This document shows positions 18,180 to 29,900 of a stretch of 51,781 nt of DNA, one piece after another (within the stretch, counting starts at the first letter, position 1; every line of letters starts with the position of its first letter). A program made the translations under genes and the position numbers. The notes beneath the pieces were generated by a model that made no database searches, had not been told where the DNA came from, and worked only from the letters and a program-made list of their open reading frames with translations. This DNA comes from Phormidium tenue FACHB-1050. GTDB lineage: Bacteria > Cyanobacteriota > Cyanobacteriia > Pseudanabaenales > Pseudanabaenaceae. The DNA is taken from positions 1 through 51,781 of the forward strand of contig NZ_JACJQY010000041.1 of assembly GCF_014696925.1 (NCBI RefSeq). The letters are read 5' to 3'.

Positions 18180-18230
18180 CAAGGCTTTAGCCTATTTCCA
18201 CTTTAAACTCAGAGGCTTTAGCCTCGCTAC
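18180..18230. repeat. Two copies of short palindromic AGGCTTTAGCCT
   Basis: The motif GGCTTTAGCC appears twice about 30 bases apart between the helicase and methyltransferase genes. It is short and its meaning is unclear. Confidence 0.4.
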
Positions 18231-18256: not shown

Positions 18257-21200
18257 ATGACCACTACTCAAATCTTCAAAAATAGTACAGGTTTGCATAT
18301 CGAAGGTAATTTGATTGCTGGGGACTATCTTGCGGATCTGGTTACGGGCAGTATCAAGGGACAAGCGCCCGAAGACTTTGGCTTTGCGAAGGCGGATAAG
18401 CTGGCGGATGAGATTGCGACGGTGTGGGGTGAGGCGAAAAAGTTTTGGGCAGGATTTAAAAAATCTCGTGAAGAATCTAGTTTCTCGGAGTCAGGGACTA
18501 CGGAAACGCGCAAGGCTTGGGTTGTGCCTTTGCTTTATAATTTGGGATATTTGCCCAGTTTTCGGGGTGAGGTGGAAGTTATTGATGGACAGAGTTTTGC
18601 GATTTCGCATCGGGCGGGAATGCCCTCACCCCCCAGCCCCCTCTCCCAAAAAGGGCGAGGGGGAGAAAGAGAATCAGAAATATTGTCCCCCTCTCCCAGA
18701 GGGAGAGGGGCTAGGGGTGAGGGCGAACCTCCGATTCACATTACTGGATGCAGAATAAGACTTGACCATAAGCCGCCGAGTGGAAATCCGAGGCTGTCGG
18801 CTCATGGGTTGATGCAGGAATATCTCAATCGGACTGAGCATCTATGGGGGATTACTACCAATGGTTTGCAGTGGCGATTGTTGCGTGACTCTTCTTTGAT
18901 GACGAGGCTTACTTATATTGAGTTCGATCTTGAGCAAATTCTCGAAGGTGAGAATTTTGCGGACTTTGGGTTGTTTTATCGTCTGTTTCACCGATCGCGT
19001 TTACCGATAGGAATGGATGATGCCCATGAGTGTCTGTTGGAGTTTTATCATCAAGAAACTTTGCAACAGGGCGGTAGGGTACGCGATCGTCTAAGAGATG
19101 GTGTTGAAAGAGCGATCGCACAATTAGGTAATGGTTTCTTGCAGCATCCCAAAAATCAAGTACTGAGGGATAAGTTTGCAGCTAAGGAAATTAGCGATCG
19201 CGATTTTTATCGACAAATCCTGTTGCTGATCTATCGCCTTTTATTCTTGATGGTGGCGGAGTCGCGTAATTTGTTGCTGACGGGGGAAGATCCTGAAAAG
19301 GTACGAATTTATGAGGAGTATTACAGCATTGAGCGTTTACGCGCTCTAGCAGAAAAGGCGATCGTTCCTCGCCGCGAAGGATTTCAAGACCTATGGCAAG
19401 GTTTGCGGGTGACGTTTTGCCTTTTTGATGAAAATTGGCGCGGTGAGTTGTTGGGGCTATCGCCGCTAAATGGTGATTTGTTCGGCTCGACGACTTTGCC
19501 AGAGCTAAATGTGAGTGCGTTAGATAATTACGATCTCATGGTCGTCATTCGCAATCTATCGCTCTATGCACCGACCGATAAGACACAACTGCGGCGTGTT
19601 AATTATGCGGCGCTTGATGTAGAAGAGTTGGGCAGTGTTTATGAGAGTCTGCTAGATTTTCATCCACAGGTGAGTTTGTCTCAGGGTAAGTATGAGTTTT
19701 TGTTAGTGGCGGGTAGCGATCGCAAAACGACAGGAGCTTATTACACACCATCAGAGCTTGTGGCACAGTTGGTGAAGAGTGCCTTGGAGCCTGTCATTGC
19801 AGAAAGGATGAATGAGGCGAAGAATTCCCTCACCCCCCAGCCCCCTCTCCCTAGGGGCGAGGGGGAGCAAGACGAATTTCAGAACCCCTCGCCCTCAGGG
19901 AGAGGGGCTGGGGTGAGGGATTCTTGGGAAATTTCTGATGATTTGCGGAAGAAGATGCAGGATGTGGCGCGGCAATTTCGTAAAGAGCCAACTCAAAGTG
20001 AAGCAATTTTGTGGGAGGCAATTCGCAACCGTAAGCTAGAAAATCGTAAGTTTCGCCGCCAGCATCCTATTGGTACATTTATAGTTGATTTTTTCTGTAG
20101 AGAAGAAAATTTAATTGTAGAAGTTGATGGACTAATCCATGAATCTCAGCAAGAGCTAGACCGTCAACGGCAAGGACTCCTTGAATCTCTTGGGTTACAT
20201 TTTGTGCGTGTCAGTAGTCAACAAGTAGAAACATCACTCTTTGAGACCTTAGAAACAATCAAACAATCTTTCTTGCTCCCCTCGCCCTCTGGGAGAGGGG
20301 CTGGGGGTGAGGGTCTTCAACAACTTCAAGAATCCGCACTCCTCTCCATTAAAGTTTGCGATCCTGCCTGTGGGTCTGGACATTTTCTGTTGGCAGCAGC
20401 ACGGCGGATTGGGAAGGAATTGGCTAAAGTACGGACGGGTGAAGCTGCGCCTAGTCCTGAACCTTTGCGTGAGGCGACCCGTGATGTGATTCAGCATTGC
20501 ATTTATGGAGTGGATATCAATCCCCTAGCGGTTGACCTTTGTAAGGTGGCGCTTTGGATTGAGGGTTTCGCGAAGGGAATGCCGCTTAATTTCCTTGACC
20601 ATCGCATTAAGTGCGGTAACTCGTTGGTGGGTGTTTTAAATCTTGATGTATTAAAGGAAGGGATTCCTGATGAGGCGTTTAAGGCGGTGACTGGGGATGA
20701 TAAGGCGCTGTCTAGTATCAAGAAGAAGGCGAATAAGCAGGAAAGGCTCAAGGATCTCAAGGGGCAACTCTCGACGGCGGGTCAGTTAGATGATGATTTG
20801 GCGGAAATTGCCTCAGCATGGCAGGAGTTGGATCGGATTCCTGAGAATACGCCTGAGTTTGTGAAGCAGAAGAAGGAGCGCTATGAGGCGAATCAACGCG
20901 ATCGCAAGTGGTGGCGCAGTCGTTCGGCTTGCAATTTGTGGACGGCGGCGTTTTTTATGCCTTTGACTGAGCAGAATTTGCAGTTATTGCCAACTACGGC
21001 GGCGTTGGTGCGGTTGTTGAATGAAGAAATTCCCTCACCCCCTAGCCCCCTCTCCCAAAAAGGGCGAGGGGGAACAGGAACCGAAGAAAATCTTGCTCCC
21101 CTCTCCCCCCTTGGGAGAGGGGCTGGGGGTGAGGGTCTTCCAGCTATAGGAATCAGAGATATTGTTGATGCTGCGAATCAGTTAGCCTCTGAGAAAGGCT

Positions 21201-23176
21201 TTTTTCATTGGGCTTTAGAGTTTCCTGATGTGTTTGAGAATGATGGTTTTGATTGCATTCTCGGTAATCCTCCTTGGGAGCGCATCAAGTTACAGGAAAA
21301 GGAGTTTTTTGCTTTGCGGGATGGGGAGATTGCGAAGGCGGCGAATAAGTCGGAACGGGAGAAGTTGATTAAGGCTTTGCCGACTCAGAAGCCTGAACTG
21401 GCGCGGGAGTTTGAGGCGGCGAAGCATGATGCTGAGGCACAAAGTAAGTTTATCCGCGAGTCGAATCGGTTTCCTTTGACGGCGGTGGGTGATGTGAATA
21501 CCTATGCGGTGTTTTCGGAGACTGCGAGGGATTTGATTGCGGGAAATGGTAGGGCTGGAATTATTGTGCCTACAGGGATTGCGACTGATGATACAACTAA
21601 AAAGTTTTTTAGTGATTTAGTGCAAAAGCAATCTTTAGATAGTTTGATAGGTTTTGAAAATGAAGCATTTATATTTTCAGAGGTACACAATGCTTTTAAG
21701 TTTTGTGCTTTAGTTATTACAGGTAAAGCGAGAATAATTAATGCTACTGATTTTATATTCTTGTGTCGTTATTTCTTTGATATCAAAGAACAAAGAAGGC
21801 ATTTTACATTAACTTCAAAAGATATTGCTTTAATTAATCCTAATACACTTACCTGCCCGATATTTCGTACTGTAGTTGATGCGAAAATCATTAAGAAAAT
21901 CTATCAAAATATCCCTGTTTTGGAAAATGAAAAAACGGGTGAAAATCCTTGGGATATTTCTTTTATGTCAATGTTTCACATGGCAAATGATAGTGAATTA
22001 TTTCACAATTCACCCAGTCAAAACACTGTGCTGCTCTATGAAGCAAAAATGTTTTGGCATTACGATCACCGCTTTTCTACTTATGAAAATGCAAAACAAG
22101 CAGATATAAATTCAGGAAGGTTACCGCAAACGATTCCAGAAATGAAACAAGATTCTAATTTTGATATTAAATCTCGATATTGGATCAATCGGGCTGAGGT
22201 TGAAAACCGCCTTGCTAACAAGTGGAATAAGCAATGGTTAATTGGCTTTCGTGATATTACAACTGCAACAAACGAACGCACAGCAATTTTTAGTTTATTA
22301 CCACGAGTTGCTGTTGGACATAAAGCACCTCTTCTGTTGACAAACGAAAAAGTCCAACTTGTTTTATGCTTATTTTCTAACTTTAATAGCTTAGTATTCG
22401 ATTTTGTAGCACGTCAAAAAGTTGGTGGAACTTCATTTAGCTTCTTCATTTTCAAACAACTCCCCGTCCTCCCCCCCGATCGCTACAGCCAAAACGACAT
22501 CAACTACATCACCCCCCTCGTCCTCGAACTCACCTACACCGCATGGGACATCAAACCCTTTGCCGACGACATTTGGAATCCCACACCCACCCGATCCCAG
22601 AGCGAAATCGAAGGGAGCAAAACCGAAACCCACTCCATCCTCACCCAAGTCAGCGACAAACAACAACTTGGGCTTGACCTAGAACTAGACCTCACAGGCA
22701 AAAAACAACTCGAACTCACCACCCCACCAGATCCCACCCACCAAACCCACCTCCGCCAACTCATCCTCGAACAATGGCAAGCCAACCGCGCTGCCTTCGA
22801 TCAAGACCCTCACCCCCCAACCCCCTCTCCCAAAGAGGGCGAGGGGGAGCAAGACTCTTTCAGAACCCCTCTCCCCACTTGGGAGAGGGGCAGGGGTGAG
22901 GGGCTTACCGACAACCTAGAAGGCATCCCCCTTCCCCCCTTCATCTGGCACGAAACCCGTCGCGCCCAAATCCGTGCCGAACTCGATGCCTACTACGCCA
23001 AACTCTACGGCTTAACCCGTGACGAACTGCGCTACATCCTCGACCCCGCCGACATCTACGGCGCAGACTTCCCCAGCGAGACATTTAGAGTCCTAAAAAA
23101 CAACGAAATGAAGAAATATGGCGAATACCGCACCCAACGCCTCGTTTTAGAAGCATGGGATAAACTGGGATATTAG
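18257..23176 (+). CDS. N6-adenine DNA methyltransferase (DrmMI-like) with nested DUF559 domain
   Basis: The 1639-residue protein is an Eco57I/type IIG-like gamma-class adenine methyltransferase. SAM motif I is DPACGSGHFLLAA (residues about 703-715) and catalytic motif IV is ILGNPPWERIK (about 1000-1010). YYTPSELVAQLV (about residue 498) is the N-terminal motif X-like segment. In DISARM class 1 a similar enzyme marks host DNA. Four full double-hairpin elements and one half element add low-complexity Pro/Gly/Arg/Glu peptides at residues about 123-155, 524-554, 673-685, 926-959 and 1518-1549. A DUF559 nuclease domain lies at about 555-673, between motifs X and I, yet both flanks keep family sequence. 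Base composition changes sharply near 21.6 and 22.45 kb. Target-recognition sequence probably lies in about 1115-1400. Confidence 0.85.
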   Translation: MTTTQIFKNSTGLHIEGNLIAGDYLADLVTGSIKGQAPEDFGFAKADKLADEIATVWGEAKKFWAGFKKSREESSFSESGTTETRKAWVVPLLYNLGYLPSFRGEVEVIDGQSFAISHRAGMPSPPSPLSQKGRGGERESEILSPSPRGRGARGEGEPPIHITGCRIRLDHKPPSGNPRLSAHGLMQEYLNRTEHLWGITTNGLQWRLLRDSSLMTRLTYIEFDLEQILEGENFADFGLFYRLFHRSRLPIGMDDAHECLLEFYHQETLQQGGRVRDRLRDGVERAIAQLGNGFLQHPKNQVLRDKFAAKEISDRDFYRQILLLIYRLLFLMVAESRNLLLTGEDPEKVRIYEEYYSIERLRALAEKAIVPRREGFQDLWQGLRVTFCLFDENWRGELLGLSPLNGDLFGSTTLPELNVSALDNYDLMVVIRNLSLYAPTDKTQLRRVNYAALDVEELGSVYESLLDFHPQVSLSQGKYEFLLVAGSDRKTTGAYYTPSELVAQLVKSALEPVIAERMNEAKNSLTPQPPLPRGEGEQDEFQNPSPSGRGAGVRDSWEISDDLRKKMQDVARQFRKEPTQSEAILWEAIRNRKLENRKFRRQHPIGTFIVDFFCREENLIVEVDGLIHESQQELDRQRQGLLESLGLHFVRVSSQQVETSLFETLETIKQSFLLPSPSGRGAGGEGLQQLQESALLSIKVCDPACGSGHFLLAAARRIGKELAKVRTGEAAPSPEPLREATRDVIQHCIYGVDINPLAVDLCKVALWIEGFAKGMPLNFLDHRIKCGNSLVGVLNLDVLKEGIPDEAFKAVTGDDKALSSIKKKANKQERLKDLKGQLSTAGQLDDDLAEIASAWQELDRIPENTPEFVKQKKERYEANQRDRKWWRSRSACNLWTAAFFMPLTEQNLQLLPTTAALVRLLNEEIPSPPSPLSQKGRGGTGTEENLAPLSPLGRGAGGEGLPAIGIRDIVDAANQLASEKGFFHWALEFPDVFENDGFDCILGNPPWERIKLQEKEFFALRDGEIAKAANKSEREKLIKALPTQKPELAREFEAAKHDAEAQSKFIRESNRFPLTAVGDVNTYAVFSETARDLIAGNGRAGIIVPTGIATDDTTKKFFSDLVQKQSLDSLIGFENEAFIFSEVHNAFKFCALVITGKARIINATDFIFLCRYFFDIKEQRRHFTLTSKDIALINPNTLTCPIFRTVVDAKIIKKIYQNIPVLENEKTGENPWDISFMSMFHMANDSELFHNSPSQNTVLLYEAKMFWHYDHRFSTYENAKQADINSGRLPQTIPEMKQDSNFDIKSRYWINRAEVENRLANKWNKQWLIGFRDITTATNERTAIFSLLPRVAVGHKAPLLLTNEKVQLVLCLFSNFNSLVFDFVARQKVGGTSFSFFIFKQLPVLPPDRYSQNDINYITPLVLELTYTAWDIKPFADDIWNPTPTRSQSEIEGSKTETHSILTQVSDKQQLGLDLELDLTGKKQLELTTPPDPTHQTHLRQLILEQWQANRAAFDQDPHPPTPSPKEGEGEQDSFRTPLPTWERGRGEGLTDNLEGIPLPPFIWHETRRAQIRAELDAYYAKLYGLTRDELRYILDPADIYGADFPSETFRVLKNNEMKKYGEYRTQRLVLEAWDKLGY
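18623..18723. repeat. GC-rich double-hairpin element 1 (in-frame in methyltransferase)
   Basis: The element begins CCCTCACCCCCCAGCCCC and ends in the complementary GGGGCTAGGGGTGAGGG. The left half folds on itself (CCCCCTCTCCC with GGGCGAGGGGG) and so does the right half (CCCCCTCTCCC with GGGAGAGGGGC), giving a cruciform-like unit of about 101 bp. It is read through as PSPPSPLSQKGRGGERE. Confidence 0.9.
19827..19919. repeat. GC-rich double-hairpin element 2 (in-frame, left of DUF559 cassette)
   Basis: This has the same two-hairpin design as element 1, about 93 bp, but is read in another frame as LTPQPPLPRGEGE...SGRGAGVRD. It contains no stop codon. It forms the left border of the DUF559-coding insert. 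Confidence 0.9.
19920..20274 (+). mobile_element. DUF559 nuclease-domain cassette inside the methyltransferase
   Basis: About 118 codons encode a complete DUF559 (Vsr-like) domain in the methyltransferase frame. It has an N-terminal helix with PTQSEAILWEAIRNRKL, then RKFRRQHPIGTFIVDFFC, then LIVEVDGLIHE and FVRVSS. The conserved Asp and E-x-D positions of the fold are present. DUF559 proteins normally stand alone at about 120 residues. Directly repeated right-hairpin sequences of about 35 bp border it on both sides (end of element 2, and 20275-20313), so it looks like an inserted cassette. Whether it is mobile or active is inference. Confidence 0.75.
20275..20313. repeat. Half double-hairpin element (right hairpin only) after DUF559 cassette
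   Basis: Only the right hairpin is present (CCCCTCGCCCTCTGGGAGAGGGGC plus the GGGTGAGGG end). It is a direct repeat of the right half of element 2, about 355 bp away. Confidence 0.85.
21032..21135. repeat. GC-rich double-hairpin element 3 (in-frame in methyltransferase)
   Basis: A full element of about 104 bp, read as PSPPSPLSQKGRGG...SPLGRGAGGEG. It lies between motif I and motif IV and does not break the frame. Confidence 0.9.
22807..22903. repeat. GC-rich double-hairpin element 4 (in-frame in methyltransferase)
   Basis: A full element of about 97 bp, read in a third frame as HPPTPSPKEGEGE...TWERGRGEG, near the methyltransferase C-terminus. Confidence 0.9.
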
Positions 23177-23186
23177 GAGGAAAATC

Positions 23187-23636
23187 ATGTCAGCCCGCGA
23201 TCTATTTCACCAAGTTGTCAGGCACGCCCTTGAAAAAGAAAATTGGCAAATAACCCACGATCCCTATGGACTCCAAACAGACAGCTTTGACCTAGCTATT
23301 GACCTTGGAGCCGAAAAAATTCTTGCAGCCGAGCTAGGAGAAACTAAAATTGCTGTAGAAATCAAAAGCTTTCTCGGATCTTCTAAAATTTCTGAATTTT
23401 ATGGAGCATTAGGACAATTTATAACCTATAGACTTGCCCTGCAAAAACTAGAAAGCGATCGTACCCTCTATCTAGCCGTCCCCGAAAACCTCTATGACAA
23501 ATTTTTCGCCACTTCCCTAGTCCAAGAACTGCTCCAACAGAACACCATTTACCTAATTACCTACGACATCGAACAGGAGAACATAGTCAAATGGATACCC
23601 TCACCCAATACCGTCAACATATCCAAAACCTCCTAA
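23187..23636 (+). CDS. xisH: XisH, fdxN-element excision controlling factor / PD-(D/E)XK fold
   Basis: The 149-residue protein matches XisH. It begins with SARDLFHQVVRHALEKENW, has LAAELGETKIAVEIKSFLG with the E-x-K catalytic-like signature of restriction-endonuclease folds, and GALGQFITYRLAL after it. XisH and XisI were named as factors needed for excision of the fdxN element in heterocystous cyanobacteria, but they occur in many genomes without that element and are often beside defence genes. A strong site, GGAGGA, precedes the ATG, which is 10 bases after the methyltransferase stop. It overlaps xisI by 46 bases, so the two are translationally coupled. A nuclease role here is inference. Confidence 0.9.
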   Translation: MSARDLFHQVVRHALEKENWQITHDPYGLQTDSFDLAIDLGAEKILAAELGETKIAVEIKSFLGSSKISEFYGALGQFITYRLALQKLESDRTLYLAVPENLYDKFFATSLVQELLQQNTIYLITYDIEQENIVKWIPSPNTVNISKTS

Positions 23637-23923
23637 AAGAACACGCTAGCCTAGTTTGGGATACCCGAATTCGCGCAGAAACAATCTTTGACACCGAACA
23701 TGACCATTATCAACTTGTCTATGTAGGTTGGCGCAACTCCAAACGAGTCTATGGCGTTGTTCTCCACATTGACATCATTGACAACAAAATTTGGATTCAG
23801 CAAGACGGCACAGAAATTGGTATAGCCAATAAATTAGTAGATCTCGGCATTCCTAAAGCAGCTATTGTCCTCGCCTTCGATCCGCCAAACCTCCGCAAGT
23901 ACACCGATTTTGCCGTTAGTTAA
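23591..23923 (+). CDS. xisI: XisI, partner of XisH
   Basis: The 110-residue protein has the conserved XisI pattern: YRQHIQNLL at the start, DTEHDHYQLVYVGW in the middle, HIDIIDNKIWIQQDGTE, and LVDLGIPKAAIVLAFDPP near the end. XisI proteins form a compact alpha/beta fold and are nearly always encoded directly after or overlapping xisH, as here. Its ATG lies inside the xisH 3' end. By family it is expected to act with XisH; the biochemical activity is unknown. Confidence 0.9.
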   Translation: MDTLTQYRQHIQNLLKEHASLVWDTRIRAETIFDTEHDHYQLVYVGWRNSKRVYGVVLHIDIIDNKIWIQQDGTEIGIANKLVDLGIPKAAIVLAFDPPNLRKYTDFAVS

Positions 23924-23949
23924 CATATAACCATTAATCTAAAATTGCC

Positions 23950-24276
23950 ATGTATTCACCAAATCAGACAATTAATAATCCTCTAAAAGCCCTTGATGCC
24001 CTCTATCAAACTGGCTATCGTAGCAACACCCTCGAACGTGCCCTAACTAAAATCGTTGATATCGAAATAGCGATCGCTCATCGCCAACATACCGAAATCC
24101 AAACCAAAATTCAAAACTACGAACAGCAATACCAAATAACATCCGAAGACTTTTATCAACGCTTTAATCGAGGTGAGTTAGGTGATACTGCGGACTTTGT
24201 AGAGTGGAGTGTATTTTACGATCTGCGTCAAGCAATCCGAGATCGCCTTAAAATCTTGCAACCACAAGCAGACTAA
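23950..24276 (+). CDS. Probable antitoxin-like partner of TumE-family protein
   Basis: The 108-residue helical, charged protein has a central coiled-coil-like segment (HRQHTEIQTKIQNYEQQYQ) and ends DRLKILQPQAD. It shares one base (TAATG) with the next gene, which codes for a TumE-type toxin. Short helical proteins in this position are usually the antitoxin (TumA-like). I do not see a clear HTH. No Shine-Dalgarno sequence is visible before the ATG. The call rests mainly on position and size. Confidence 0.6.
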   Translation: MYSPNQTINNPLKALDALYQTGYRSNTLERALTKIVDIEIAIAHRQHTEIQTKIQNYEQQYQITSEDFYQRFNRGELGDTADFVEWSVFYDLRQAIRDRLKILQPQAD

Positions 24277-24665
24277 TGGATGCAGAGCAATATCTAAGTG
24301 AGATTAAAACAAAACTCATTATTAGTCCTGCCATATTTTCTTTTACGGTTGTGGAAGAACAAGACTTAAGCGATCGGGGCTATTTTCGAGCTAGAGTCAT
24401 TCTTGCAAATAATGATTTTCTAGAAGTCTCCGAATACTTCATCGTTGATAGCAATAAAACTATTCCACAACGCTATCGTTATCAATGGATGGATGATACA
24501 CAATCTACTCTACGCAGACGATGGGATAATGTTCCACATTTTCCAAACCTGCCCAACTTTCCCCATCATATCCATATTGCCTCTGAAGGTAATGTTGAAA
24601 CAAGCCAAGCAATAGGAATTTTGGAAGTATTACAAATTATTGAAAAAGAAATTGCTGAAAACTAG
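24276..24665 (+). CDS. tumE: TumE (DUF6516) family toxin-like protein
   Basis: The 129-residue protein matches the TumE/DUF6516 family. It has an N-terminal helix with a SPAIFSFTVVEEQDL strand, then FRARVILANNDFLEVSEYFIV, then YRYQWMDDTQSTLRRRWDNVPHFP and a C-terminal HIHIASEGNVE...LEVLQIIEKEI. The conserved RYQWM...RRRWDN..HFP core is intact. TumE members pair with TumA antitoxins, and the toxic mechanism is not one I can state. It lies three bases before the helicase fusion gene, in the middle of the defence-like operon, so it could guard or stabilise that operon. Confidence 0.75.
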   Translation: MDAEQYLSEIKTKLIISPAIFSFTVVEEQDLSDRGYFRARVILANNDFLEVSEYFIVDSNKTIPQRYRYQWMDDTQSTLRRRWDNVPHFPNLPNFPHHIHIASEGNVETSQAIGILEVLQIIEKEIAEN

Positions 24666-24667
24666 CC

Positions 24668-26818
24668 ATGACCTTTAGCCTCACCTTTGCCCCAACCTTC
24701 ATGCACGAACTCATTGGCATACCGCAGAATGTCGCCAAACGAGTTTCTAAAGCCACCAAATTATTAGAACGCGATCCCATCTCTGCCGAAGGGGATGCCA
24801 AAAGGCTCAAAGGTTATGAAAATGTCTATCGCATCCGTATTGGTGACTATCGTCTTTTTTATGCGATCGGTACTGGTTGGGTAAAGCTGCTGAGTGTCCG
24901 CAAGCGCAATGAGCGCACCTATGAAACCGAAATTCCTAATGTCGTAGCGCCAGAAACCACCCTCGATCTCCAGTCCGTAAAACCGAAGAAAGTCCCCTCA
25001 CCCCCCAGCCCCCTCTCCCAAGCAGGGAGAGGGGGAGAAAGAGAAGATGACCTCTTGTCCCCCTCTCCCTCAGGGAGAGGGGCTAGGGGTGAGGGACTCC
25101 CTTTCGCACTTACAGAAGATATCTTGCAACAATGGCAGATTCCCGCACAATATTGGACAGCGATCGCTAAGGTGAATAGCGCTGAAGCATTGCTAGAGCT
25201 AGATATGCCCGATCGCTTTCTAAATGTGATTCTGGATAACCTTTATCCACGTTCCATTGAAGAAATAGATACACAGCCCGAATTTGTCCTCAGTCAAGCC
25301 GAAGACCTCGATCGCTATTTTGCTGGCGATCTCAGTGCTTTTTTACTCAAGCTCAGCGACGAACAAGAAAAATTAATTCAATTTGGCAGCAATGGCACAG
25401 TTCTGATCAAAGGCGGTGCAGGTACTGGTAAATCTACCCTTGCCCTCTATCGCATCAAAAAATTAGTAGAGCAGGGCTGCACCTCCATTTTATTTACCAC
25501 CTATACCAATGCCCTCGTTTCCTATTCCGAGCAACTTCTAGAACAATTACTAGGCTGTCCTCCTGCGGATAAAGGCGTAGAAGTAACTACGATTGATGCG
25601 ATCGCCCGCCGCTATTTCGTTACCACAGGCAAAACCACCCCATTCCTTGATCGTGATAAATGTCTATCACTATTAGCCAATGCCCTAGAGCAAGCGAATA
25701 TTCCTGCCCAAAATGTATTTGATCGCCAAGTCAAACTGCAAACATTACAAAAACTGGGTTTACCCTACCTCCTCGATGAAATCTTACAAACGATCGAAAA
25801 TTGGGGCATTCGCACTCTTGATGATTACATTGCCCACGATCGGCGTGGTCGGGCTGTGCCGCTGCGACAAAATATTCGTGAAGCAATTTGGGCAGTTTAT
25901 GAAACATGGGAAAAGTTATTAGCTAAAAATGGCAGCCTCACATGGGAACAGCTACGCCGCCAAGCTCTTGAAGTTGCTCAAAATTTAGTTGAAAAACCCT
26001 ATCAAGCGATCGTCATTGATGAAGCTCAAGATTTCTCCCCTGTCGCCCTGCGCTTTTTACTTAACCTCACTCCCAACTTCGACAATATTTACATCACCGC
26101 TGATGCTTCTCAATCCATCTATCAGCGCGGCTTTAGCTGGAAGCAAATCCATGAAGATTTGAAAGTCACGGGACGGACGCTCATCCTCAAGCAAAACTAT
26201 CGCAACACCCAACAAATAGCGATCGCCTGTACCGATATTCTGCTTGGCACAGAAGCAGGCGATCCCGAATGCTTACAGCAAATTCCCTCTTTACATATCG
26301 GCGATCCTCCTTTGCTCTTCCTAAGTAACAACCAAGATCAAGAACTAGCCGCTATTCGCGATTTTTTAATAGACTCCGCCAAACGTTTTCGTCTTCCTCT
26401 GCATGGCAGCGCCATCCTCTGCCCAAATAACTACAGCGCTGAAACCTATGCCAAACAATTATCACAATTGGGACTCAAAGCCAAATTTGTCTCAGGTAAA
26501 AAGATCGATCTTAAAGCTCCCTACATTAAAGTCCTGACCCTCTATTCCGCTAAAGGTTTAGAGTTTCCCTTTGTGGTAGTCACGGGATTAGCAGCAGGTA
26601 ATTTCCCAAGCTTCAACAGTGATTTACCGACAGAAGAACATTCTAAAATCCGCGATGAACAAAGGCGGTTATTTTATGTCGGCTGTTCTAGAGCTATGCG
26701 ATCGCTAATGGTTTGTGGCTCCTCCTCATATCCCTCTGAATTTATTGAAAACCTCAAAGCCCCATATTGGAACCCTCACCCCCCAGCCCCCTCTCCCATG
26801 AAGGGAGAAGGGGAGTAA
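24668..26818 (+). CDS. RelE-like domain fused to UvrD/Rep-type helicase
   Basis: The 716-residue protein has an N-terminal RelE/ParE-like fold (residues about 1-90, with AKRLKGYENVYRIRIGDYRLFYAI) and a superfamily I helicase. Walker A is KGGAGTGKST (about 248-257), motif II VIDEAQDFSP (about 449-458), motif V LTLYSAKGLEFPFVVV (about 623-638) and motif VI RRLFYVGCSRAM near the end. Double-hairpin element 5 separates the two domains (residues about 110-143), and element 6 supplies the last 15 residues and the stop. RelE-UvrD fusions occur widely in bacteria. Whether the RelE part cuts mRNA is unknown. The helicase probably acts 3' to 5'. Confidence 0.85.
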   Translation: MTFSLTFAPTFMHELIGIPQNVAKRVSKATKLLERDPISAEGDAKRLKGYENVYRIRIGDYRLFYAIGTGWVKLLSVRKRNERTYETEIPNVVAPETTLDLQSVKPKKVPSPPSPLSQAGRGGEREDDLLSPSPSGRGARGEGLPFALTEDILQQWQIPAQYWTAIAKVNSAEALLELDMPDRFLNVILDNLYPRSIEEIDTQPEFVLSQAEDLDRYFAGDLSAFLLKLSDEQEKLIQFGSNGTVLIKGGAGTGKSTLALYRIKKLVEQGCTSILFTTYTNALVSYSEQLLEQLLGCPPADKGVEVTTIDAIARRYFVTTGKTTPFLDRDKCLSLLANALEQANIPAQNVFDRQVKLQTLQKLGLPYLLDEILQTIENWGIRTLDDYIAHDRRGRAVPLRQNIREAIWAVYETWEKLLAKNGSLTWEQLRRQALEVAQNLVEKPYQAIVIDEAQDFSPVALRFLLNLTPNFDNIYITADASQSIYQRGFSWKQIHEDLKVTGRTLILKQNYRNTQQIAIACTDILLGTEAGDPECLQQIPSLHIGDPPLLFLSNNQDQELAAIRDFLIDSAKRFRLPLHGSAILCPNNYSAETYAKQLSQLGLKAKFVSGKKIDLKAPYIKVLTLYSAKGLEFPFVVVTGLAAGNFPSFNSDLPTEEHSKIRDEQRRLFYVGCSRAMRSLMVCGSSSYPSEFIENLKAPYWNPHPPAPSPMKGEGE
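24995..25095. repeat. GC-rich double-hairpin element 5 (in-frame in RelE-UvrD gene)
   Basis: A full element of about 101 bp, read as PSPPSPLSQAGRGGERE...SPSGRGARGEG. It forms the linker between the RelE-like and helicase domains. Confidence 0.9.
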
Positions 26819-26870
26819 GACAATTTCTTGTTCCCCTCTCCTTTCTTGGGAGAGGGGCTAGGGGTGAGGG
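26773..26870. repeat. GC-rich double-hairpin element 6 (3' end of RelE-UvrD gene)
   Basis: A full element of about 98 bp. Its left half codes for HPPAPSPMKGEGE and supplies the TAA stop at 26816-26818; its right half is noncoding. The gene's original 3' end may have been replaced. Confidence 0.85.
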
Positions 26871-26912
26871 TCTTCCAAACTGACATTTAACATTACATCT
26901 TCAATTAAAATC

Positions 26913-29900
26913 ATGTCCTCAAAACTCTCTTTACAACTGCAAAACCTGATCCAAAAGCCTGAAGCCGTGTTACATAATTTTGCGGGCATGATTGTCGATG
27001 GGAATGTGGCGATCGACTGCTCAGGAGTCGAAGCCGCAGATATTAATGAGTCTCAATTGCAAATTCTCTTTGGAGAAATCCGTGAAAAATGGGACTTCAC
27101 ACAACTCGGTGAATCCCTCGATCCTGCGACTATGAGCGATTCTCTGGCAGAGAAATTACTTAATTGGTTTCAAAATAAGCCAGTCGTTAAAGTTAGTAAT
27201 CAAATTATTAATCTTAACGATTCTCCCTCCACTCCATCTCTCAACATCTTTGCTCAACGCGATCGCATCATCAATGAATATCGCAGCTACATCGAAAGCT
27301 TTCTCAAAATCGCCGATCCGCGACTCAAGGAATTTGTCGAACAGGAGTTAAACGATGGACATCTCTGGACACCACCACTCCTGCAACTAACTCCCGAATA
27401 TCAAAAAGGACGAACCACCAGCGAACTCATTGCCGCAGGCATCTTACATCCTGACTGTTCCCAATATTTCCGCACTGATAAAGGACAACCCTTTCATTTT
27501 CGCTACCACCAAGAACAAGCCTTTGAAATTGCCCATCGTCAAGAAAACTACGTTGTCACCACAGGTACAGGATCGGGCAAAAGCTTAACTTACATCGTCC
27601 CAATTTTCGATGACCTAATCCGTAATCCTGACCAAACAGGCGTTAGGGCGATTTTGGTATATCCCATGAATGCCTTAATTAATTCCCAAGAGGAAGAGTT
27701 AAGAAAGTTTCTCAAAAATGTTCCAGACACCCATATTCGCGTTGAAAAATATACGGGTCAGGAAAGCCAAGCTCAAAAGATCGCCATCCAAAACGATCCA
27801 CCTCAAATCCTGCTCACGAACTATGTAATGCTCGAACTGATGCTTTCGCGTACCCATGAAGCAAAGTTTGTCAAATCCCCAAATTTAAAATTTCTTGTCC
27901 TCGATGAGTTGCACACCTATCGCGGTCGTCAAGGCGCAGATGTAGCAATGCTGATTCGTAAACTGAAGCAACGGTGCGGTCAAAAGCTGATCTACATCGG
28001 CACAAGCGCCACCATGTCTACCCAAGGTGATCGCCATGATATCCGCAAGACGATCTCAGATGTCGCCAGTAAACTTTTTGGCTCTGAGGTAAAACCCAAT
28101 CATGTGATTGATGAAACCCTCAAACGTTCCATCGATCGCCATGAGCCTGACCTTGCGGAACTAAAAGTGGCGATCGCTAATCCCTTACCCGAACCATCAG
28201 ATTCTCTAACGGATCTAACGCTCTTTCGCCAACATCCTCTCCCTGCTTGGATTGAGATGAATTTTGGGCTAAAAGATGACAATGGACATTTGATTCGTCG
28301 TACTCCCATCGCCATCTCTACTGGTGCAAAGCAACTCGCTGAACTGACAGGACATCTAGTCTCTGAATGCGAACAAAAACTTACAGATGTATTACTATGG
28401 GGCAGCCGCATTAAAGACCATAAACAAGGTTTAACTTTTAGACTGCATCAGTTCATCTCACAAGGCGGCAGTGTCTATGCCACGATTGAGCCAAAAGATC
28501 AGCGATACCTTACCCTTGACGGACAATACAGCACCACAGGCGATCGCTTGCTGTTCCCGATCGTCTTTTGTCGCGAATGTGGACATGATTACTACATGGT
28601 GCGTTGCGATCGCGAAAATCATAAAATTACGCCGCTACTCCCCAACGCGATAGACTTTGACCCCGATAACACCGAAATTCAAGAAGGCTATATCACTCTT
28701 GATGAGCCTGATTTATGGAGTGACGAAGATTGCGATCGCTTACCTGATAGTTGGTTTAAGGTCACCAAAAGAGGTGGACGGGAACCCCAACAAAAATATA
28801 TTGATCGCATTCCGCAAAAGCTGCGGATTCTATCCAATGGAACGATTACCGATAAATTAACCGAAGGTATTCCCTGTTGGTTTGTCAAAAAACCTTTTCG
28901 CTTTTGCCTCAACTGTGAAATTCTGCATGATGGACGCAAAGCCGAGTTTACCAAACTCTCTCGACTTAGCAGTGAAGGGCGCAGCAGTGCCACCACTTTG
29001 CTCTGTCTTTCCACTGTTGAAGAACTTAAGGCAAGTCTCGGTGAAAATAATCATGCTGCTAAAGTTCTGAGCTTTACCGATAATCGTCAAGATGCTTCAT
29101 TGCAAGCAGGACATTTCAATGACTTTGTGCAAACTACATTTCTGCGATCGTCTCTATGTGCAGCTTTGGCTAAAGCCAAACTACTTACTCATGAGGCGCT
29201 GGCTCAAGCTGTATTCAAGGAAATGAATTTGCCCGAAGAGGAATACGCTAGAGAACCAGCCCCATTTGATACCAGTAAAAGAAATGAGCGAGTTTTTCGA
29301 GACCTATTGGAATATCGACTTTACGAAGACCTACGACGCGGCTGGCGATTATTACAACCGAATTTAGAACAATGTGGCTTACTAGAAATCCAATATCAAG
29401 GATTAAGAGAAACTTGTAATGATGAAGGACTATGGCAGACCATTGATCATCCTATCCTCAGTAAAGCCTCACCTCAAGAGCGCTTTATTGCAATTAAGGA
29501 ACTTCTCGATTTATTGCGGCGCGAACTAGCGATCGATGCCGACCTATTAGATGTAGAACGAGTAGAACGCCTATACAAAGCAGTTACTCAATCTATTAGC
29601 GATCGTTGGAAATTTGAACTAGATGAAAATCTCTACAAAGCAAAATCGGCAATCTTCATCAAGGATAAGGATGATACTAGTTCAACTAGCAAAGCAAAAA
29701 GCAAATCATTTAGCAAATCAAATACAAAATCAAATACACAGGAGACGATCCCCCTGAGTAAACGCAGTCGATTCGGAAGGTTTCTGAGTAGCAGTGCTGC
29801 ATGGTCATGGTTAACTGAATCACTCTCAGAGCCAGCCTATCAAGAATTACTAGAAAAATTAATTGCAGCTTTACGGGCTTCAGGATTTCTGTCTGGAGAT

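Follow-up and report, generated by a model that had tools for sequence, protein, structure and literature searches.

A DUF559 nuclease gene flanked by intrastrand-triplex repeats: a probable mobile-element-like family found within bacterial genes

How does a complete nuclease domain come to lie inside a DNA methyltransferase, and what are the repeats at its borders? The question is raised by a 51,781-nucleotide stretch of Phormidium tenue FACHB-1050 DNA (contig NZ_JACJQY010000041.1; hereafter the window), in which a methyltransferase open reading frame (ORF) contains a DUF559 (PF04480) domain. We consider it likely that the insert is a copy of a widespread mobile-element-like family, in which a DUF559 gene stands between two or more repeat units of the intrastrand-triplex type, usually inverted. 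Gene-less derivatives, made of two units and ~90–110 bp long, outnumber the gene-bearing form. The features of the window on which the argument draws are as follows, with their basis in brackets.

18257..23176, plus strand: host gene, an Eco57I-class (type IIG-like) DNA methyltransferase ORF of 1639 residues with four in-frame inserts (ORF list, Pfam, alignment)
19827..20313, plus strand: whole DUF559 element in the methyltransferase, residues 524–686 (repeat analysis and alignment)
19827..19864, minus strand: left repeat unit; on this strand a hairpin, then an outward-facing third strand GGGGTGAGGG (sequence and repeats)
19885..19919, plus strand: extra right-type repeat unit, which completes a gene-less element beside DUF559 (sequence and repeats)
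19952..20266, plus strand: DUF559 nuclease domain, residues 566–670, PD-(D/E)XK/Vsr-like (Pfam, profile, fold model)
20278..20313, plus strand: right repeat unit, with hairpin, short loop and outward third strand with end GGGGTGAGGG (sequence and repeats)
18623..18723, unstranded: gene-less short element 1, in frame in the methyltransferase, residues 123–156 (alignment)
21032..21135, unstranded: gene-less short element 3, in frame in the methyltransferase, residues 926–960 (alignment)
22807..22902, unstranded: gene-less short element 4, in frame in the methyltransferase, residues 1517–1549 (alignment)
24995..25095, unstranded: gene-less short element 5, in frame in a UvrD-like ORF (alignment)
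26773..26870, unstranded: gene-less short element 6, which contains the end of the UvrD-like ORF (ORF list and alignment)

The preliminary description of this locus proposed that DUF559 is inserted in frame in the methyltransferase and bordered by GC-rich hairpin repeats. The first point held: the frame is uninterrupted across the insert, Pfam places DUF559 at residues 566–670 (E 1.2e-27), and the N6_Mtase match begins at residue 699, at profile position 49, with Eco57I matched downstream and MmeI_Mtase also matched. DUF559 thus interrupts the methyltransferase ahead of its DPACGSG motif, at a point that we take to be the motif X/I junction. The hairpins were also recovered, as a right-type copy present twice in direct repeat (19885–19925 and 20278–20318, 78% identical) and as a left-type inverted copy at the start of the insert (19835–19864, which pairs with 20278–20307 at 80%); they are intrastrand-triplex motifs and not plain palindromes. 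Gene-less copies number three in the methyltransferase (96–104 bp) and two in the UvrD-like ORF next to it (101 and 98 bp). Two or three of the six frames are free of stops in five of six short elements examined; the one beside DUF559 (19827–19919) has a single such frame.

By their sequence design, the units around DUF559 belong to the intrastrand-triplex motif class BoxC/PIT/TM. Each consists of a pyrimidine arm, a loop, a purine arm, a short loop and a purine third strand that mirrors the purine arm, with A or T opposite A. The second loop is most often 3 nt (224 of 478 scored units, with gaps of 2–40 allowed and the smallest taken first), and in some units (L019, L026 and L116; L and G numbers denote our loci and genomes) it holds an additional hairpin. 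Stem and third strand covary, as in the pairs GGAGAGGG/GGGTGAGG, GGAGAAGG/GGATGAGG and GGGGAAGG/GGATGGGG and, in Neisseria, GGGAGAGAG/GAGAGAGGG. Among 356 asymmetric purine hairpins near DUF559, the mirror partner scored better than the direct one in 161, worse in 53 and equally in 142. The 21-mer unit end occurs at 59 sites in the 5.6-Mb source genome (at most one mismatch), against none for a reversed-pattern control; therefore the repeat is not due to chance. By eye, about half of the short elements have an AAGA/TCTT flank, which could represent a target or the remnant of an end; we do not rely on it, because orthologous copies inflate the count. Intrastrand triplex motifs, formerly BoxC/PIT, were described by Holder et al. 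(2015, PMC4666352) as a hairpin with a third strand folding onto the purine arm, and triplex formation in vitro is reported there for the Escherichia coli motifs, TMECO.

The fold model of the window DUF559 (mean predicted local distance difference test score, 88.6) best matched the Neisseria endonuclease-like protein 3hrl and 3r3p in the fold search, with Vsr (1vsr) at rank 15, and the profile search ranked the same two entries first. The structure 3r3p (E 4.1e-5 by profile; template-modelling score 0.70 by fold) is, according to its PDB entry, the homing endonuclease I-Bth0305I. The conserved D...ExD..H residues were present in all 173 usable DUF559 domains, a count to be read with the caveat that 80 loci were found by a pattern containing E-x-DG and that frames were partly chosen by such motifs. 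Fold and catalytic residues thus agree with those of EDxHD/Vsr-like nucleases. A dN/dS of ~0.10 against the copy in G114 (12 synonymous and 5 non-synonymous changes) indicates that the window domain is under purifying selection. Free-standing DUF559 proteins measure ~105–120 residues. Caulobacter VsrA, a DUF559 protein, has been proposed as a mismatch-repair nuclease and drives a DNA damage response in cells without a solitary methyltransferase (PMC12907096), and in experimentally evolved Legionella, mutations and recombination concentrated in DUF559 segments (PMC12308824); as a side observation, both reports may bear on the window element.

Is the company of nuclease and repeats peculiar to this locus? 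Our phylum set comprised 98 genomes, 51 of them with a strong DUF559 match, and 98 matches in total, of which 93 had readable flanks (left out were G053, G070, G005 and two in G013). A strict triplex unit lay within 350 bp of DUF559 at 85 of these 93 loci, against 7 of 91 comparison-window pairs 600–950 bp away; left and right flanks had a repeat in common at 83 of 93 loci, against 0 of 91 far pairs; and one or both of these signs marked 91 of 93. A second collection held the best 80 named DUF559 loci from many phyla, 70 with sufficient flank. Inverted repeats were found at 47 of these 70, whereas the far windows, taken together from 102 usable loci (cyanobacterial ones included, after 10 of 112 had been dropped for too little flank), gave 6 of 293. 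For triplex units we combined the 80 named loci with 32 cyanobacterial ones and three added by hand after being seen (L189, L193 and L194; the first two represent one E. coli gene from two strains). A unit lay within 400 bp at 87 of these 115 loci, and on both sides at 59, compared with 0 of 115 2-mer-shuffled sequences and 14 of 213 far windows. Fisher P values for the association range from 1e-33 to 1e-41, for windows that are not fully independent. Triplex-positive loci came from Bacteroidota, Chloroflexota, Elusimicrobiota, Spirochaetes, Pseudomonadota, a Desulfobacteraceae genome and a Methanophagales archaeon. Units stood on each side at 75 of 173 loci (a set with at least one double, L072 and L218 being identical and probably one genome), and 61 of these 75 pairs were inverted (P 4e-8), with third strands facing inward in 31 and outward in 30.

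DUF559 is thus associated with the repeats at loci chosen regardless of repeats, in other cyanobacterial genomes and beyond, as the preliminary description had supposed for this locus. Its wording, that the nuclease 'rides on' palindromic elements, is too weak, because gene and repeats stand together at nearly all phylum loci, mostly between inverted pairs. We also sought a DUF559 domain in the same host without hairpins. Four loci have host parts in common with the window (L029, L072, L218 and L226, compared without regard to the exact insertion residue); L226, whose DUF559 is sister to that of the window in the tree (support 100/99), has the motif on both sides (G033:C2:107711 and 108181).

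The association extends to whole genomes. One form of the motif, in any copy number, was present in 22 of 51 genomes with DUF559 and 8 of 47 without (P 0.008); at least four copies were present in 13 of 51 and 1 of 47 (P 0.001, at a threshold chosen after the counts were seen); and within family f21 any copy was found in 7 of 18 and 0 of 20 (P 0.0025). The source genome itself has six PF04480 matches. Repeats flank each of the four strong ones, which lie in an MmeI-type gene (L007), in HsdR (L008), between type III restriction–modification (R-M)-like genes (L009) and in the window; the stretches around the two weak ones contain no copy of the 9-base box. At L009 (3060–3660, contig C5 of this genome), a free-standing DUF559 is flanked by a different repeat of similar design (CCCCCTAAATCCCCCAATTCTGGGGG ... 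CCCCCAGAATTGGGGGCTAGGGGG); therefore, several repeat/nuclease pairs coexist in one genome. The repeats often differ among the DUF559 copies of one genome, and repeat and protein diverged in step (r 0.54, reached by 0 of 1,000 within-genome shuffles).

Are the elements ever absent from the same site? Alignment with homologous methyltransferases, proposed in the preliminary description, was made with six of 26 genus genomes searched, each with long matches, giving seven sequences with the window. The DUF559 site is empty in three (G117, G100 and G120), holds a 97-bp gene-less short element alone in one (G102) and carries DUF559 in three: the window, G114 with the same element, and G122 with a different DUF559 and an extra element. 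Short element 1 is missing from five of the six relatives (G117, G114, G100, G120 and G122) and short element 4 from G117 and G100. A palindrome-like sequence of another kind (GTTGCTAAAGCAAC type) was noted at window positions 18186–18230 and in L139, there at the place of short element 1 in an empty allele.

Residence within genes is not confined to methyltransferases. Frames of at least 280 residues hold 67 of 173 DUF559 loci, 51 with a frame of at least 100 residues on both sides, and 29 of the 98 phylum matches lie in frames of at least 350 residues. Hosts identified by Pfam include leucyl-tRNA synthetase (LeuRS), methionine synthase, type ISP, HsdM, HsdR and an Eco57I-class gene, together with PriA, MmeI, peptidase M14, GHMP kinase and radical SAM, the latter with DUF559 at its C-terminal end; names come from a Pfam scan of one member per group, and isoleucyl-tRNA synthetase, methionyl-tRNA synthetase and IspE are our own reading. 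LeuRS was filled in 5 and empty in 11 of 16 Bacteroidota genomes, four of which were picked as known filled. Between two conserved motifs it measured 164–182 residues in four filled genes and 30–36 in four empty ones. The four empty sites read had no repeat-type peptide, so gene and repeats probably arrived there together. For PriA in one genus, 26 of 33 genomes were aligned: 4 were filled, 1 had a repeat remnant, 10 were clean and 11 had other inserts. In the sister species G142, G131, G127, G128, G015, G034, G003, G135, G028 and G133 (among L166–L185), the PriA loop that elsewhere takes DUF559 elements holds purine-rich inserts resembling inverted repeats (AAGAAGGCAAG ... CTTGCC type), which marks it as a hot spot where two or more types of element insert. 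In the DUF559 tree, domains from one host site mostly fall together (17 changes for 13 groups, against a shuffled mean of 44.7), as expected for elements that stay put and occasionally move, or for homing at fixed sites. Judging from their open frames, in-frame copies probably end up in the protein as Pro/Gly-rich linkers, some including the nuclease domain and others not. The UvrD-like helicase ORF of the window (24668–26818) shows a ParE-toxin-like N-terminal match, contains two short elements and ends in the last.

In E. coli MG1655, ycjD (1351407–1351760) encodes a DUF559 protein (E 1.4e-49) and lies 168 bp from TMECO no. 9 of the published list (CCCTCGCCCCTCTGGGGAGAGGGTTAGGGTGAGGGG; PMC4666352, Table 1). 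Its 3' end overlaps a decayed second motif copy, fuller in strain HYM1, and the chance that a random 354-bp gene lies that close to one of 23 motifs is 0.003. That study reports no mobility function around TMECO sites, and its main text contains no occurrence of nuclease, DUF or ycjD. TMECO-site variation, already reported there for 56 strains, extends to 5,426 genomes: taking cover of at least 80% of the MG1655 query as a rough sign of presence, the five paired sites are held by 5371 (hrpB-mrcB), 2752 (fepB-entC), 3018 (ygfF-gcvP), 3728 (alx-sstT) and 3912 (lldD-trmL) genomes. In shorter alleles, the motif pair is gone (L263, L264, L265 and L268) or partly gone (L266, L267 and L270); the gcvP allele L269 lacks ygfF too. 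The E. coli among our 14 control genomes gave no PF04480 match despite the clear one in MG1655, and may lack ycjD, because 2042 of 5375 genomes do not hold 80% of that locus. Alleles without ycjD on the fabI side were ruled out as simple empty sites, as other genes are present there (one strain).

Do the elements move? Those of L031, L034 and L215 are 94–97% identical to that of L036 over 606–636 bp and have different outer flanks. Similarity stops near the outer repeats in two of the three comparisons and continues for ~29 bases in L215. Beside the DUF559 element, at positions 1904–2001 of the L036 query, we observed a further short repeat family, of which each genome has many copies (G064, G048 and G072). 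A clean reciprocal empty site for these elements was not obtained, the region being rearranged. Mobility, which the preliminary description had offered as an inference, is backed by these pairs and by the empty sites, and it stays inferential.

We lean towards the view that these elements form an unrecognised class of prokaryotic transposable element, in which a single DUF559 nuclease reads triplex folds at both ends. The DUF559 protein would be the mobilising enzyme and the folded single strand its substrate. When the region becomes single-stranded, at a replication fork or during repair, each unit would fold into a hairpin with its third strand; the protein would recognise this fold and nick or cut at its foot; and the segment between two units would then enter a break at another place, by copying or by transfer, and be sealed in with no duplication of the target. 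Landings in frame within protein loops may be tolerated because the units have stop-free frames.

Several observations weigh against this proposal. Movement was not seen directly; recombination between repeats could explain the differing flanks, because the region is rearranged; junctions are blurred, because the aligned empty alleles have diverged; and 25 short elements, some orthologous, showed no target duplication over lengths of 2–10 (lowest P 0.04, at 6 nt among nine lengths). DUF559 copies within one genome are mostly 40–70% identical, so there was no recent burst of the gene-bearing form, and the one pair at 84–85% (G060) has related flanks. Direct pairs make up 14 of the 75 flanking unit pairs. 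No strict unit was found at 28 of 115 loci or, by a similar rule, at 10 of 66 embedded ones, nearly all in the methionine-synthase group with its short all-G stem arms. The eight motif-bearing genomes without a strong DUF559 match also count here, as does the copy-number link within the class alone (9 of 27 genomes with DUF559 and 1 of 13 without, P 0.12), and the co-diversification of repeat and protein is confounded, because loci are inherited together. Holder et al. found no stable triplex in vivo (PMC4666352), and in Legionella a transposase shares the repeated segment that contains DUF559 (PMC12308824).

What else could account for the locus? Another enzyme might spread the repeats, and DUF559, as a homing endonuclease gene, would come to lie between them by inserting into them or cleaving them. 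The shared fold with I-Bth0305I and the gene-less element standing alone at the window site in G102 suit this model, as does the clustering by host site, which site-specific homing would produce; mobile elements within repetitive extragenic palindromic (REP) repeats are known (ISPpu9; PMC8450116). We nevertheless think it unlikely. The repeats were not seen in company with any other enzyme, and REP-associated tyrosine transposases (RAYTs) were rejected as carriers, as the three Y1_Tnp genes of the source genome have no full unit (one has a lone GGGGTGAGG ~200 bp off); moreover, the repeats often differ among DUF559 copies of a genome, and the four empty LeuRS sites examined lack any repeat-type peptide. 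That DUF559 is a working methyltransferase domain, the nuclease of an R-M enzyme around which repeats gather by chance, would fit the R-M-type host, the further R-M genes with DUF559 (HsdR, HsdM, MmeI and type ISP) and the purifying selection. This is hardly credible given that three of the seven aligned sequences lack DUF559 and a fourth has a gene-less element in its place, that the domain also occurs within, or at the end of, genes for LeuRS, MetH, PriA, peptidase M14 and radical SAM proteins, and that repeats flank it at nearly all phylum loci; a simple old fusion is likewise rejected on the empty and filled alleles at the methyltransferase, PriA and LeuRS sites.

A static arrangement, in which the repeats are structural or regulatory, DUF559 is a repair nuclease and presence or absence reflects deletion only, strikes us as quite improbable. 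It draws on the proposed repair role of VsrA (PMC12907096), on the partial motif-pair losses in E. coli (L270 and L266) and on TMECO-linked instability having been read largely as deletion (PMC4666352). Against it stand dozens of similar copies per genome, in-frame coding copies and near-identical gene-bearing elements with different flanks, and such copies and flanks require some spreading process. Familiar element types were also tried and rejected. Rfam gave 55 sub-threshold matches to 18400–27000, nearly all to microRNA models (a hairpin effect) and none to group I or II introns. No intein domain appeared among the Pfam matches of 18 proteins, and the frame is open across the insert. A miniature inverted-repeat transposable element or DDE insertion sequence is not supported by the short elements, which lack target site duplications, and the scanned proteins have only PF04480, with a weak overlapping MTES_1575, as a nuclease- or transposase-type domain between repeats.

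How does the proposed element family relate to known systems? EDxHD homing endonucleases such as I-Bth0305I share its homologous fold, D...ExD..H residues and fixed sites in conserved genes; in contrast, no intron or intein was detected around the DUF559 element, which has its own repeats and gene-less derivatives. BoxC/PIT/TMECO motifs have the same hairpin and third-strand design, much the same sequence and sometimes inverted pairs, and their published list includes the copy beside ycjD; they are described in that account (PMC4666352) without an associated gene, whereas here a partner gene is found. REPtrons, that is, REP repeats with their RAYT, likewise have a gene between palindromic repeats that are also found alone in many copies (PMC3733652, PMC8266576), and the gene here does stand between inverted copies of a dispersed palindrome; it encodes a PF04480 PD-(D/E)XK/Vsr-type nuclease and not an HUH/Y1 enzyme, and its units have a mirror third strand. 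Rickettsia palindromic elements are also short and in frame within protein genes, a likeness drawn without comparing sequence or triplex design, and their account (PMC10969869) as consulted names no enzyme. The insert in the ShiLan phage methylase also carries an endonuclease and is open in the host frame without splicing signals (PMC11855218); that nuclease is of the HNH type and lies in another frame, and the abstract does not mention flanking repeats. The best account is that the family works like a REPtron while falling outside the definitions of REPtron (no Y1), intein, intron and DDE element. Our search of the open PMC literature found no report linking DUF559 with triplex repeats.

So far, BoxC/PIT/triplex repeats have figured in catalogues as sequences that destabilise genomes and whose origin is unclear. 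With a partner gene at most surveyed loci, their origin becomes directly testable, E. coli K-12 ycjD included. If the proposed reading is true, it would explain the origin of these repeats in lineages ranging from E. coli to Cyanobacteria and would give a role to the large DUF559 family, listed in Pfam as of 'unknown function'. Vital genes such as those for LeuRS, PriA and MetH would have been colonised in frame without splicing, a whole nuclease being translated within the host enzyme, and Pro/Gly-rich inserts in many bacterial housekeeping proteins, some with a complete nuclease domain, would be accounted for. A mechanism of nuclease plus triplex would then join the known routes by which DNA moves.

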